Of a DNA stretch of 64,000 nucleotides, positions 2,629-8,689 are shown piece after piece. The translations under genes were made by a program, and so were the position numbers. The stretch lies in assembly GCF_012163145.1 (NCBI RefSeq), contig NZ_JAAVTX010000008.1, forward strand, positions 186,001 to 250,000, read 5' to 3'. The notes beneath the pieces were generated by a model. It saw nothing but the letters and a program-made list of their open reading frames with translations. It was not told the origin of the DNA and made no database searches. Source of the stretch: Falsiroseomonas frigidaquae. GTDB taxonomy: Bacteria > Pseudomonadota > Alphaproteobacteria > Acetobacterales > Acetobacteraceae. Position 1 is the first letter of the stretch, and each line of letters starts with the position of its first letter.

Positions 2629-3762
2629 TCAGCCGAGCACCTCCTCGATCACCCGGGCATAAAGCCGGGTGAGAGCGCGCAATTCCTCGACCGGCGTCGA
2701 TTCATCCGCCTTGTGCATGGTGGCGCCGACGGCGCCGAGTTCCGCCACCGGGCAGAACCGCGCGATGAAGCGGGCGTCGGAGGTGCCGCCGCCGGTATCG
2801 AGCTTCGCCGCCTGCCCCGTCTCCGCCAGCACGGCGCGTTCCAGCGCGGCGACGAAGGGGCCGGGCTGGGTGAGGAAGGATTCGCCGCTGCACACCACGT
2901 CCAGTTCGTGTCGCGGCGCCTCGCGTTCCAGCGCCGCGCGCAGATGCGCGGTCAGGCTGGCCTCGCTGTGCAGGTCGTTGAAGCGGATGTTGAGCCGCGC
3001 GGTCGCGCTGGGCGGGATGACGTTGGTCGCCGGGTTGCCGACGTCGAAGCTGGTGACCTGCAGCGTCGTCGGCTCGAAGAATTCGCTGCCCTGGTCGAGC
3101 GGCGTGCCGGTGAGCGCGGCCAGCACGCGGACCAGGCGGTGGATCGGGTTGTCGGCGCGCTGCGGATAGGCGCTGTGGCCCTGCGTGCCATGCACCGTCA
3201 GCGTCGCATTCAGGCTGCCGCGGCGGCCGACCTTGATGGTGTCGCCCAGCACCGCCTTGCTGGTGGGCTCCCCCACCACGCAGCAATCCGGAACTTTTCC
3301 CGAGTTGGCCAGCCAGTCCAGCACCTTGGCGGTACCGTCGATGGCTGGGCCTTCCTCGTCTCCCGTGATGAGGAGCGAGAGGGTGCCTGGCATGTCGGGG
3401 CGCCGCGCCAGCACATCCGCCACGGCGGCGACCCAGGCGGCGACGCCGCCCTTCATGTCCGTGGCGCCGCGGCCGAACAGCAGGCCGTCCCGCACCTCCC
3501 CACCGAAGGGATCAACGCTCCAGCCGGTTGTACCGGGCGGCACCACATCGGTGTGCCCGGCGAACATCAGATGCGGGCCAGCCTCGCCGCGGATGGCGAA
3601 CAGGTTCTCCACCTCGCCGAAGCGCAGCCGGTGGCAGGCGAAGCCGAGCGGCGCCAGCGCCGCCTCCAGCACCGCCAGCGCGCCGTCATCGACGGGTGTG
3701 ACGGATCGGCAGCGGATCAGCGCCTGGGCCAGCGGCACCGGGTCCGGAACGTCATTCCTCAC
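2629..3762 (-). CDS. dapE: succinyl-diaminopimelate desuccinylase DapE
   Basis: DapE removes succinate from N-succinyl-LL-2,6-diaminopimelate in the lysine and peptidoglycan precursor pathway; it is a cytoplasmic di-zinc M20 peptidase. From the GTG at 3760-3762 the protein has 377 residues, the normal family length; longer frames that read back into dapD are not needed. Visible motifs are FAGHTDVVPPG (His70, Asp72), GRGATDMKGG (bridging Asp102) and TGDEEGPA (general base Glu136 and metal ligand Glu137). A C-terminal GGTSDARF segment is also typical. It starts 8 bp after the dapD stop, so dapD-dapE is an operon carrying two consecutive steps. Confidence 0.96.
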   Translation of the reverse strand: MRNDVPDPVPLAQALIRCRSVTPVDDGALAVLEAALAPLGFACHRLRFGEVENLFAIRGEAGPHLMFAGHTDVVPPGTTGWSVDPFGGEVRDGLLFGRGATDMKGGVAAWVAAVADVLARRPDMPGTLSLLITGDEEGPAIDGTAKVLDWLANSGKVPDCCVVGEPTSKAVLGDTIKVGRRGSLNATLTVHGTQGHSAYPQRADNPIHRLVRVLAALTGTPLDQGSEFFEPTTLQVTSFDVGNPATNVIPPSATARLNIRFNDLHSEASLTAHLRAALEREAPRHELDVVCSGESFLTQPGPFVAALERAVLAETGQAAKLDTGGGTSDARFIARFCPVAELGAVGATMHKADESTPVEELRALTRLYARVIEEVLG

Positions 3763-3769
3763 CCGGGGT

Positions 3770-4609
3770 CTAGTCCCGCAGCAATTCGTTGATCGAGGTC
3801 TTCGAGCGGGTCTGCGCATCCACCCGCTTCACGATCACGGCGCAGTACAGCGACGGCCCCGGCGAGCCATCCGGCAGCGGCTTGCCCGGCAGGCTGCCGG
3901 GGACCACCACGGAATAGGCCGGCACGCGGCCGATGAAGACCTCACCGGTCGCGCGGTCGATGATCTTGGTGGAGGCGCCGAGGAACACGCCCATGGACAG
4001 CACGCTGCCGCGCTCCACGATCACGCCCTCGGCCACTTCGGACCGGGCGCCGATGAAGCACTCATCCTCGATCACCACCGGGTTGGCCTGCAGCGGCTCC
4101 AGCACCCCGCCGATGCCGGCGCCGCCGGAGATGTGGCAGTTCTTGCCGATCTGGGCGCAGGACCCGACCGTCGCCCAGGTATCCACCATGGTGCCCGAAT
4201 CGACATAGGCGCCGAGGTTCACGAAGGACGGCATCAGCACCACGCCCGGCGCGATATAGGCGGAACGCCGCACCACGGCGCCCGGCACGGCGCGGAAGCC
4301 GGCTTCCTTGAAGCGGTTGGCACCCCAATCGGCAAACTTCAGCGGCACCTTGTCATAGGCGCCGAGGCCCACATCCATCGGCGCGCTGTCGGTCAGGCGG
4401 AAGGACAGCAGCACGGCCTGCTTCAGCCACTGGTTGACGCTCCAGACGCCATTGGCGCCGGGCTGGGCGACGCGCGCCTGGCCGGAATCGAGCAGTTCCA
4501 GCGCGGCCTCCACCACCTGCCGGTCCTCGCCCTGGGTCTGGGCATTCAGCGTATCCCGCCGGTCCCACAGCGCCTCGATCTTGGCCTTCAGGGGCGTGGT
4601 CGTGTCCAT
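3770..4609 (-). CDS. dapD: 2,3,4,5-tetrahydropyridine-2,6-dicarboxylate N-succinyltransferase DapD
   Basis: DapD transfers succinyl from succinyl-CoA to tetrahydrodipicolinate in lysine/diaminopimelate synthesis. The ATG at 4607-4609 gives 279 residues (family 274-284). After an alpha-helical N-terminal domain the middle of the protein shows the left-handed beta-helix hexapeptide pattern, with segments such as [32 protein letters not shown] and [14 protein letters not shown], all standard for DapD. It is the first gene of the dapD-dapE unit and diverges from the diguanylate cyclase gene at 4801. A reading frame continuing upstream to 4831 would overlap the divergent gene and lacks family similarity, so it was trimmed. 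Confidence 0.97.
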
Positions 4610-4663
4610 GGTCTGCGGTGTGTCCTGGCTGGCCGTATGGCGGTTCTGCTTCGCGCCGGACCA

Positions 4664-4689
4664 TGCATAGGCTGCCGCCGCGATGTCAA
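4664..4689 (-). promoter_or_regulatory. candidate dapD promoter
   Basis: On the minus strand a perfect TTGACA (4689-4684) is followed by TATGCA (4669-4664), 55 bp upstream of the dapD ATG. The -35 box is consensus but the spacer is only 14 bp, short for a sigma-70 promoter, so this is tentative. Confidence 0.3.
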
Positions 4690-4800
4690 CGCGCCCCGGC
4701 CGCCTCCGCGGCACACGCCCCGCCCGCTTCCGGGCGCCGCGTGCCCTTTGGCAGGCCGTCGCTAACCGCGCCTTCACCGGCGGCGCCTTAGCCTGCCGAC

Positions 4801-6096
4801 ATGGACGGACCGCCCCCGCTCTCGCCCCCACCGCCCAAGCTGCAGCCGCGCAGCGCAGGACCGGAACCGCTGGCCGCCGCGCTGATCGATAGCCGGGCCC
4901 GATGGCGCGACTTCGCGCTGCTCTCGGCAGACCTGCTGTTCGAGACGGACGCCGAGGGCCACTTCACCTTCCTGGCGCCCGAGACGGTGCTGGGCCACCC
5001 GGCGGAGGCGCTGATCGGCGCGCCGGCCGTGACCCTGTTTGCCGGCCCCGGCCCGGGCGTCTTCGGCATCGGCGCCTTCCGCCGCCAGCGCATGACCAAG
5101 GCCTGGCTGGATTGCGCCGATGGCAGCAAGGCCTGCCTGGAATTCACCCTGCTGCGGCATGGCGACGGGCTGCGCGGCTCGGCGCGGGACATCACCGCCG
5201 CGGAACGCCGGGGGGAAGTGGTGGCGCGCGCGCTGCGCCGGGCCAATGCGCTCGGCCGCCTGCTTCGGCTGGGCCAGCGACAGGGCAGCGCCGAGGCGGG
5301 GCTGACCGCCATGCTGGCGGCGCTGCCGGCCGCGCTGTCCTGCCAGGGCGCGGCGCTGCTGCTGCCGGAGGGCGCTGCCTGGCGGGTGGCGCATTACGTC
5401 AAGGACCAGCCGCCGCTGCACCTGCTGCCGCCGCCCCTCATCCAGGCACCCGGCAGCCAGGCCGCGCCGTCCCACCACGCCATGGCCGGCACCGAGGGCG
5501 GCCCCTGCCTGCTCGCCTGGCGCGAGCCGCAGGACCCGCCATTCGATTCGGATGACCGCGAATTGCTGGCCGCCCTGGCCCTGCCGATGGCGGCGCTGCG
5601 CGGCGAGATGCAGCGCCAGAAGGCGCTGACCGCCGCGGCGGATGGCGACCCGCTGACCGGCCTGCTGAACCGGCGCGGCTTCACCGCGGCGCTGGAGGAG
5701 CAGCTTCCGGGCGGCGGCGCGCTGGTGTTCCTCGACCTCGATGGGCTGAAGCCGCTGAACGATCGCCTGGGCCATGAGGCCGGGGATTCCGCGCTGCGCG
5801 CCATGGGCGCCCGGCTGCGCGCCGCCGCGGCGCGGGAGGATCTGGCCGCGCGGCTCGGCGGCGACGAATTCTGCCTGTGGCTGCACGGCGCCAGCCAGCT
5901 GGAGGCGGAATGCCGCATGGTCGGCATCGGTGCGCCCGGGCCGTTGCCGGACTGGCCGGAAGCCGGCCCCGCCGCCTTGCGGGCCAGCCTGGGCATTGCC
6001 ATGGCACAGCCCGGCGAGCCGGTGGCCGACCTTCTGGCCCGCGCCGATGCCGCCATGTACGCCGCCAAGCGCGCCTCCGGGGACCGCCGGAAGTGA
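4801..6096 (+). CDS. diguanylate cyclase with PAS-like N-terminus (GGDEF protein)
   Basis: 431 residues. The C-terminal third is a GGDEF domain: [12 protein letters not shown] near 285, [21 protein letters not shown] near 310, and an intact GGDEF signature near 353, so cyclic di-GMP synthesis from two GTP is expected. An RxxD inhibitory site five residues before GGDEF is absent, so no product inhibition through that site. Residues about 35-130 look like a PAS fold ([21 protein letters not shown], a [11 protein letters not shown]-like end), and residues 170-270 resemble a small GAF-like region. No membrane segment is seen, so it is cytosolic. Its TGA overlaps the GTG of the DUF2336 gene (GTGA, 6093-6096), and pyp follows on the same strand. 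Confidence 0.9.
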
Positions 6097-7256
6097 CCGA
6101 CAGCCCGGATGCCATCCACGCCGCACGGCACGGCGACGCGGCGGCGCGCACCGCGGTCGCGCGTGCGCCGAACGCCTCCCCGGAATTGCTGACCTTCCTG
6201 GCGGCGGACCCGGCGGCGCAGGTCCGCCAGGCGGTCGCCGCCCATGCCTCGACTCCGCCCGCGGTGGCGCGGCTGCTGGCGGCCGATGCGGATGCCGAAG
6301 TGCGCCGGGTGCTGGCCGGCCGCATCGCCGCCCTGGCACCGGAGCTGGACAGCAAGACGCGCAGCCGCATGGCGCGGCTTTCCGCCGGCACGCTGGCGCT
6401 GCTGGTGGAGGATGCGGCGGTGGAGGTGCGTGCCGCCATCGCCGCCGCGGTGCGGGAGATGCCGGACGCACCGCGGGAGCTGATCCTGCGCCTGGCGCGC
6501 GACACGGCGATGCCGGTGGCGGAACCGGTGATCCGCCTGTCGCCCCTGCTGACCGAGGCGGACCTGCTGGCACTGATCGCCGCCCCGCCGGTGCCCGCCA
6601 CCCGCCGCGCCGTCGCCCGCCGCCCGGCGCTGAGCGAGACGGTCTCGGACGCCATCGCGCACACCACGGACACGCCGGCCGTCGCCGCCCTGCTGGCCAA
6701 CCCCTCCGCCGCGATCCGGGAGGCGACGCTGGACCAGATCGTGGCCGGCGCAGGCAACCGGCCGAGCTGGCAGGCGGCCCTGGTGCGGCGCGCGCAGCTT
6801 CCGGCGCCGGCCGCTCGGGCGCTGGGGGAAATCGTGACCGACCACCTGCTGAGCGTGCTGGCGGCCCGCACCGACCTGCCGCAGGGCCTGGCCGCCGCCC
6901 TCCGCACCCGGGTCACCGCGCATCTGGCGGTGGAGGACGACGCCCAGGATGCGGAGGCCGAGCTGCTCGCCGCGGCCCAGGCCGGCGACCGGGACCTGCT
7001 GCTGTCCCGCCTGGCGGAGGCGGCCGGGGTCAGCCATGCACGGGTGGAGGCCGCACTGGCGCTGCGGAGCGGCCGCGCCATCGCCGGGCTGTGCCACAGC
7101 GCCGGCTGGTCCGCGCCCCTGGCGGCGGAAGTGCAGGCGGTGCTGGGCGGCCTCAGCCCGGCCGAGGTGGTTCACCCGACCGTCGAGGGAAGCTGGGCGC
7201 TGGGCGAGGCGGAGCTGCTCTGGCAGGCGGAACTGCTGGAAGGCCTGCCGGCCTGA
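6093..7256 (+). CDS. DUF2336 domain protein (HEAT-like alpha-helical repeats)
   Basis: 387 residues from a GTG at 6093 that overlaps the stop of the GGDEF gene by four bases; frames extending upstream merely reread the GGDEF gene. The protein is almost entirely alpha-helical, with repeated short helices of the type [22 protein letters not shown] and [15 protein letters not shown], as in DUF2336 proteins, a family found mainly in alphaproteobacteria and of unknown biochemical role. No catalytic residues or membrane segments are evident, so a protein-protein scaffold is likely (inference). Being sandwiched between a diguanylate cyclase and a photoreceptor suggests it links or modulates their signalling. 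pyp starts 79 bp downstream on the same strand. Confidence 0.85.
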
Positions 7257-7335
7257 TGGCCTTCAGCGGCGGTTAATCCCGTTCTGCGAGGTTGTCCCGG
7301 CCGGGATGTGCCCGGTCGCGACAGGGAGTTCCGCA

Positions 7336-7725
7336 ATGGACGGCATGATGGGTACCGTGGCCTTTGGCCGCGAGGACATGGAGAATGTGCTGGCGAAGAT
7401 GTCCGCCGCACAGATCGAGAAGCTGGCCTTCGGCGCGGTGGAACTGGACCGCGAGGGCAAGATCCTGACCTACAATGCCGCCGAAGGCGCCATCACCGGG
7501 CGCGACCCGAAGGCCGCGATCGGCAAGAACTTCTTCACCGACATCGCCCCCTGCACCAACAAGCCCGCCTTCAAGGGCGTGTTCGACAAGGGCGTGGCCT
7601 CGGGCAAGCTGAACGCGATGCTCGAATACACCTTCGACTACAACATGAAGCCGACGAAGGTGAAGGTGCACATGAAGAAGGCGATCTCCACCGAAAGCTA
7701 CTGGGTCTTCGTGAAGCGGCTCTGA
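7336..7725 (+). CDS. pyp: photoactive yellow protein (PYP), blue-light photoreceptor
   Basis: 129 residues, PAS fold; the Halorhodospira halophila protein has 125. Compared with that protein as I know it, this one is offset by +4 and keeps Tyr46 (Tyr42), Glu50 (Glu46), Thr54 (Thr50), Arg56 (Arg52) and the chromophore-carrying Cys73 (Cys69, in APCT). Long matching blocks include [36 protein letters not shown] and [10 protein letters not shown] functional PYP binds p-coumaric acid by a thioester to this Cys and undergoes a blue-light photocycle. A GGGAG run 8 nt upstream supports the ATG at 7336; Met4 and Met5 are alternatives. Tyrosine ammonia-lyase and coumaroyl-CoA ligase, which supply the chromophore, are not in this window. 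It follows the GGDEF and DUF2336 genes. Confidence 0.95.
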
Positions 7726-7746
7726 TACCGGATCCCGCGGAACAGT

Positions 7747-7798
7747 AGCCGGCGCGCGCCCCAGGGCGCGACAGCCGGCACGCGCCCTGGGGCGCGAC
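7747..7798. repeat. two tandem 26-bp units, each a hairpin; likely bidirectional terminator
   Basis: Two adjacent units (7747-7772 and 7773-7798) both contain a CGCGCCC/GGGCGCG stem with a two-base centre (CA in one, TG in the other). Read across units, 7755-7770 and 7781-7796 also form a perfect 16-bp inverted repeat with a 10-nt loop. The site lies between convergent pyp and argB, so termination in both directions is plausible. No T-tract follows on either strand. Confidence 0.6.
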
Positions 7799-7804
7799 GC
7801 CAAT

Positions 7805-8689
7805 TCAGGCGCGGATCAAGGTTCCGGCGCCCTGCCCGGTGAACAGTTCCAGCAGCACGGCGTGCGGCACGCGGCCATCCACAATGACCGCACCCTTCAC
7901 GCCGCGCTCCACCGCATAGATGCAGGTCTCCACCTTCGGGATCATGCCGCCGGAGATCCAGCCGGCGTCGATGCCGGCCTTGACCTCGGCCACCGTCATC
8001 TCCGGGATCAACTGCCCGTCCGGGCCGAGCACCCCGCGCACATCGGTCAGCATCAGCAGGCGCTCGGCGCCCAGCGCCCCGGCGATGGCACCCGCCACTG
8101 TATCGGCGTTGATGTTGTAGGTCTGGCCATCGGCGCCGACGCCGACGGGCGCCACCACGGGGACTATGTCCGCGCCGATCAGCAGCTTCAGCACGCGCGG
8201 GTCCACATGCTCCGGCTCACCCACGAAGCCGAGATCCATCACCTTCTCGATATGGCTGTCCGGGTCGCGGTAGGTGCGGGTCAGCTTGCGCGCCTGGATC
8301 AGCCCGCCATCCTTGCCGGAAATGCCCACGGCAATGGCCCCGGCGCGGGTGATGGCGGAGGCGACCTGCTTGTTGACCGGGCCGGCCAGGACCATCTCGA
8401 CCACGTCGAGCATTTCCTCATCCGTCACCCGCAGGCCCTGGACGAAGTTGGACTTCACGCCGAGGCGCTTGAGCATGGCGTTGATCTGCGGCCCGCCGCC
8501 ATGCACCACCACTGGGTTCACGCCCACCTGCTCCAGCAGCGCGATGTCGCGGCCGAAGCGGAGCGCCGTCTCCTCCTCCCCCATCGCGTGGCCGCCATAC
8601 TTCACCACCACGATCTGGTCGTCGTAGCGCTTCAGGAAGGGCAGTGCGCCGGCGAGGATCGCCATCTGGTCGAGCGCGTCGTCGGTCAT
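7805..8689 (-). CDS. argB: acetylglutamate kinase ArgB
   Basis: ArgB phosphorylates N-acetyl-L-glutamate, the second step of arginine synthesis, in the cytoplasm. 294 residues, normal length. Visible motifs are [10 protein letters not shown] (ATP phosphate-binding Lys) near residue 30, [13 protein letters not shown] near 62, [17 protein letters not shown] near 85, and [28 protein letters not shown] near 195, with a SGGMIPKV segment near 245 that contributes the catalytic Lys. The C-terminal [11 protein letters not shown] end is typical of the family. It stands alone on the minus strand, convergent with pyp, with 122 bp to the next gene upstream. Confidence 0.97.

Follow-up and report, generated by a model that had tools for sequence, protein, structure and literature searches.

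By its sequence, the window (the whole 64,000-nucleotide stretch of DNA that was analysed) holds the gene for a photoactive yellow protein (PYP) that is canonical, has its whole pocket, probably works and stands alone as an orphan, and the neighbourhood that it forms with a GGDEF gene and a DUF2336 gene is probably a matter of chance and not a conserved light-switch system. The explanation that we favour, and regard as fairly likely, is that this working PYP landed singly in an old dapE-dapD / GGDEF-DUF2336 / argB block and is loaded with its chromophore in trans. Thus, the gene would have been acquired as a single gene between DUF2336 and argB and would perhaps owe its transcription to read-through out of the GGDEF-DUF2336 unit; its apoprotein would be loaded by the p-coumarate:CoA ligase (pCL) of a second PYP cluster on the contig C12, with p-coumarate taken up from outside, and blue light would drive the usual trans-cis photocycle at Cys73. 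The output of the protein is not given by its neighbours, and its coupling to the GGDEF and DUF2336 proteins and to c-di-GMP is possible, what speaks for it coming largely from this one genome. PYP has been intensively studied biophysically, while its signal chain is still a gap, called an important gap in knowledge in the available part of PMC12826048.

Table 1. Features of the PYP locus, in positions of the window
Feature	Positions	Strand	Basis and remarks
dapE homologue	2629..3819	-	in conserved block; start codon uncertain, reading frame extends into dapD
dapD homologue	3770..4621	-	divergent from GGDEF; in conserved block
GGDEF diguanylate cyclase homologue, 431 aa	4801..6096	+	PF00990 E 1.2e-28; PAS-like N-terminal part (from homologues)
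DUF2336 protein, 387 aa	6093..7256	+	PF10098 E 9.7e-34; GTG start
Gap DUF2336-PYP, 79 bp	7257..7335	+	no sigma-70-type promoter match; GGGAG before PYP start
PYP, 129 aa	7336..7725	+	profile and PDB-chain matches, residue comparison; single domain, pocket complete
GC hairpin (20 pairs with a single bulged base; T run absent)	7751..7801		strong, z -4.95; between convergent PYP and argB
argB homologue	7805..8689	-	convergent with PYP

The photoactive yellow protein and its transcription

The first-pass annotation had placed a PYP with the pocket Tyr46/Glu50/Thr54/Arg56/Cys73 at position 7336, and this was borne out, with the protein scoring 194.5 bits against the NCBIfam model TIGR02373 'photoactive yellow protein' (cut-off 143.05) and with all five residues kept, as the counterparts of Tyr42, Glu46, Thr50, Arg52 and Cys69 in the Halorhodospira PYP. 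The latter was also its PDB-chain match (E 3.3e-56, phmmer) and is identical to it at 87 of 125 positions at a fixed offset; the family matches of PYP, GGDEF and DUF2336 in the window are all far beyond chance. The same five residues were present in 90 of the 103 PYP-like segments of at least 90 bits in the fetched loci, a set with some double counting, since the loci of a few genomes, that of the window among them, were fetched twice. Both the window protein and the Halorhodospira halophila PYP are single-domain PAS proteins of similar length with a complete p-coumarate pocket; however, the former has a leucine (Leu96) at the place of Phe92 and its gene lacks an adjacent pCL or tyrosine ammonia-lyase (TAL). 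Since the photocycle of the Halorhodospira protein is slowed when Phe92 is mutated, according to the available part of PMC9664959, slower kinetics of the window PYP may be guessed.

The reading frame contains no stop and no frameshift, and the comparison with the Belnapia gene gave dN 0.16 and dS 0.79, the dN/dS values for three further PYP pairs being 0.20/0.44, 0.24/0.62 and 0.26/0.45. In the tree, which has many unresolved forks, the window PYP groups with that of Belnapia, at a support of 93/74 that is not strong, and lies among alphaproteobacterial PYPs located elsewhere, with pCL. The GC3 of the gene (0.923) is like that of its neighbours (0.869-0.929) and, therefore, gives no compositional sign of recent arrival.

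Read-through from the upstream pair is suggested by the short gap before PYP, by the lack of a sigma-70-type promoter match within it in a weak scan, and by the hairpin behind the gene, which may be taken as the end of the transcription unit. The 17-base arm of this hairpin was considered as a dispersed repeat and rejected, with one exact and two one-mismatch matches in the genome and two for the reversed control.

The GGDEF-DUF2336 pair and its block in relatives

The position of the GGDEF and DUF2336 genes directly upstream of PYP, on the same strand and with a four-base overlap, was confirmed as first annotated, the two genes sharing the GTGA at 6093-6096. The first of them encodes a predicted cyclase with the diguanylate cyclase domain and an intact GGDEF motif at residue 353, and the motif is likewise intact in all 21 homologous loci, which comprise 20 family loci and L071; in one of these family loci (L181) an in-frame stop lies inside the aligned GGDEF stretch. 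The RxxD inhibitory site of the window protein lacks its arginine at what we take to be the usual distance. No Pfam PAS match was obtained for the window's own GGDEF protein, while among the 12 members scanned PAS_4 was matched in four, PAS_9 in two and PAS in one (E <= 0.01).

The DUF2336 protein, the single match to PF10098 found in the genome, is predicted to be all-helical in a model built from two sequences (mean pLDDT 76.7, pTM 0.51), with which the PDB fold search returned nothing at E <= 0.001 and weak matches to HEAT/ARM. The protein is distantly related in sequence to Caulobacter SpbR (NCBIfam NF052659), but at 114.4 bits it lies far under the cut-off of 400 and is not a member by this test. 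SpbR was reportedly the subject of a study by Wang and Bowman in 2019, whose title stands in a reference list, and it is mentioned in the available part of PMC12700997. The literature search found no paper on DUF2336, nor any in which PYP and DUF2336 occur together, nor one on PYP with Roseomonas.

The three flanking ORFs listed in Table 1 are presumably dapE, dapD and argB. Among the 398 genomes of the family that were searched, DUF2336 relatives were found in 189 and PYP matches, many of them weak, in 42. Twenty DUF2336 loci of 15-16 kb each (L163-L182) were fetched, nine from the same genus and 11 from the wider family, chosen as the best among the DUF2336 matches listed, plus G006; the genus share covers nine of the 11 other DUF2336-matching genomes, G262 and G287 with weaker matches being left out. 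The order of dapE-dapD divergent from GGDEF-DUF2336 is kept in 20 of 20 fetched loci, and argB lies beyond DUF2336 in 13 of them, which is also the arrangement of the window. The nearest relative is G357, with 90% identity in DUF2336, and there the alignment ends of DUF2336 and argB are 22 bp apart; the distance is 19-28 bp in four other loci and from 36 bp to about 1.4 kb in the other eight, all measured between alignment ends, which do not always reach the stop codon. The whole block, which in the window extends over 2629-8689 and is often closed by argB, thus keeps the GGDEF and DUF2336 proteins together in every fetched locus as an observation in its own right. The broader notion that DUF2336 is generally paired with GGDEF across the class was rejected, the GGDEF of the window giving no tblastn match in 30 class-wide DUF2336 loci with 1.5 kb on each side, which were the best places of 147 matching genomes among 289.

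PYP itself was found in none of the 20 fetched loci (0/20), and a three-gene unit with an order conserved in relatives is thereby not supported. As the block stands without PYP in 20 of 20 relatives, the gene looks like a later arrival between DUF2336 and argB, or like a survivor of a gene lost elsewhere, and the sequences suggest that the adjacency of DUF2336 and PYP is incidental. The similarity of the inserted DNA to other loci lies inside the PYP coding region or reaches at most 9 bases beyond its stop (25 matches listed). Matches to PYP, in many cases weak, and to DUF2336 occur together in thirty other genomes of the family, and among the 27 of them for which both places were listed (G028, G132 and G251 being outside this comparison) G121 alone has the two on a shared contig, at a separation of about 2.4 Mb. 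The search of the genus (16 genomes) gave any PYP match in six and an identity above 60% in the window's genome and in G382 only, the latter with the closest PYP of the genus, which lies with pCL on the contig C11 while DUF2336 is on C33, although separate contigs are not proof of distance in fragmented drafts.

Against the favoured explanation it may be held that PYP may have been lost in relatives, that its composition is like that of the neighbours, and that the pCL of the genome lies slightly under the family cut-off. In its full form, the argument from loss has PYP at the site since the origin of the family with its loss in the sampled relatives, and the codon composition fitting the host agrees with it; however, repeated losses would be needed for the 20 loci without PYP, and the grouping with Belnapia among PYPs located elsewhere with pCL (93/74, not strong) speaks against it as well, so such an ancient residence is very improbable.

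A distant alphaproteobacterium, Q-1 (L071, 640-10378), which contributes a single locus to the 80 nearest ones of PYP, has the same dapE-dapD / GGDEF-DUF2336 block. Its PYP, accompanied by a pCL of its own, stands at about 8 kb from DUF2336 and at 3.4 kb from dapE, in an orientation that differs from the window. Here PYP approaches the block a second time without adjoining it, by which pure coincidence is slightly weakened.

PYP beside GGDEF genes and the proposed light switch

The adjoining of PYP and GGDEF genes is already published as recurrent, GGDEF being reported in 29 of 113 predicted pyp operons in the available part of PMC12826048, and diguanylate cyclases being listed as neighbours for clades A and C in that of PMC9664959. 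The window resembles these operons in that a GGDEF gene adjoins pyp; however, it lies upstream of pyp in the window and downstream in Table 2 of PMC12826048, and the GGDEF-DUF2336 pair of the window exists in relatives without PYP. PYPs with 60-80% identity to that of the window were found on large plasmids in four of the 12 plasmid records with a match, so that transfer is plausible; all 12 of these records are predicted to be non-mobilizable. The best of those plasmids, from Indioceanicola, carries pyp-pcl-ammonia-lyase-hypothetical-GGDEF in one run, and the homology of its GGDEF protein to that of the window was rejected beyond the GGDEF domain, to which the significant match (34% over 178) is confined. 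A viral carrier of PYP was likewise set aside, one 23-base pattern of the gene giving no exact match in viral_contigs, which is a narrow test.

The first-pass annotation had proposed a light-to-c-di-GMP switch with DUF2336 as intermediary. In the form considered here, PYP would be co-expressed with the upstream pair, would dock on DUF2336 or else on the cyclase at its PAS-like part, and would alter the cyclase activity in blue light, the old pair having captured PYP in this lineage only. The short same-strand spacing with no separate promoter found is consistent with it, as are the intact GGDEF motif in the window and in all 21 homologous loci, the predicted all-helical DUF2336 protein with its weak HEAT/ARM matches (such folds are often binding scaffolds), the published recurrence of PYP beside GGDEF, the run of the Indioceanicola plasmid and the Q-1 locus. 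However, the GGDEF-DUF2336 loci of 20 relatives have no PYP, G121 is alone in having both on one contig and holds them megabases apart, the cyclase has a PAS-like region of its own (by PAS_4 in 4 of 12 members, and not in the window's own protein), and the plasmid cyclase resembles that of the window significantly in the common domain only. The switch is, therefore, judged unlikely. It is a doubtful speculation, with the chances well against it, that in this one lineage a newly arrived PYP became connected to a conserved GGDEF-DUF2336 module already in place; DUF2336 would then be the first scaffold known to dock a PYP to a diguanylate cyclase, and Q-1 would be a second, independent approach to the module. 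PYP and GGDEF can come to be adjacent next to a conserved block that occurs without PYP, so the lists of partners drawn from operons need to be checked for the same block in relatives.

Chromophore supply and the second PYP cluster

The nearest PYP homologues, taken as the best 80 of 121 found in genome_contigs, have pCL downstream on the same strand in 79 cases, of which 77 show a distance of up to 300 bp or a slight overlap as judged from the alignment ends; L107, the one left over, stops 310 bp beyond PYP. This count describes nearest homologues only, and the adjacent pCL is not universal, as the available part of PMC12826048 gives pCL in 42 instances (32% of the pyp operons) and TAL in seven. 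The ammonia-lyase was matched in 35 of the best 80 loci (L145 and L001 left out), the weaker matches being possibly other lyases. No pCL match was obtained in the window, where PYP is followed by argB on the opposite strand; in comparison with the canonical pyp operon (pyp-pCL, sometimes with TAL), the window pyp has argB in the place of pCL, and neither an adjoining pCL nor a TAL in the operon or genome was found for it.

The chromophore supply genes looked for in the genome were found in part. The best pCL (G000:C12) scores 329.6 bits with TIGR02372, just under the cut-off of 334.7, and adjoins the second PYP of the genome, which is 46% identical to that of the window and lies above the TIGR02373 cut-off. 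TAL was not found in this genome (rated 97.9% complete), the candidate being rejected as the sole PF00221 match is hutH (TIGR01225, 647.5 bits, cut-off 539.15). Its flanking ORFs are, as we take them, hutU and hutI, and at the place of the His-Leu seen in the annotated ammonia-lyase from a pyp operon it has Ser-His, a motif that we assume to bear on the hutH identity. Ammonia-lyases of other specificity might supply p-coumarate (PMC9664959, available part), and some bacteria may take it up (PMC12826048, available part), so the genome without TAL is compatible with a loaded PYP. It thereby poses a clean question of loading in trans, with one good pCL candidate, two PYPs and no TAL found.

The orphan might also be a non-working remnant, severed from a pCL/TAL operon, never loaded with the chromophore and on its way out, as the missing adjacent pCL, the failure to find TAL in the genome and the leucine in the place of Phe92 would have it. 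Yet the pocket is complete, the frame has neither stop nor frameshift, dN is well below dS, and the genome has the pCL-like gene together with a second intact PYP, which makes the decay of the gene improbable.

The second PYP (L156 8975-12396, G000:C12, outside the window) lies within a run of three small uncharacterised proteins, named smlB, smlC and smlA for the present purpose, with pCL divergent; the sml proteins of this genome gave no Pfam or NCBIfam match. PYP was found in such a run in nine genomes of the family, in the order smlB-PYP-smlC-smlA in eight of them, the ninth (G207) having two PYPs and no smlB, and pCL directly adjoins the run in six of the nine. Similar sml trios without a PYP match occur in six others (L246-L251), the third member in L250 matching smlB better than smlA. 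The sml cluster is a better lead for the partners of PYP than the block in the window. Among the other PYP-like genes of the family, the second-type PYP of L159 (G044:C63) has an in-frame stop at the pocket tyrosine position, and G006 contains four PYP-like genes (C75, C95 and C107) with 53-61% identity to the window PYP, plus a fragment on C113.
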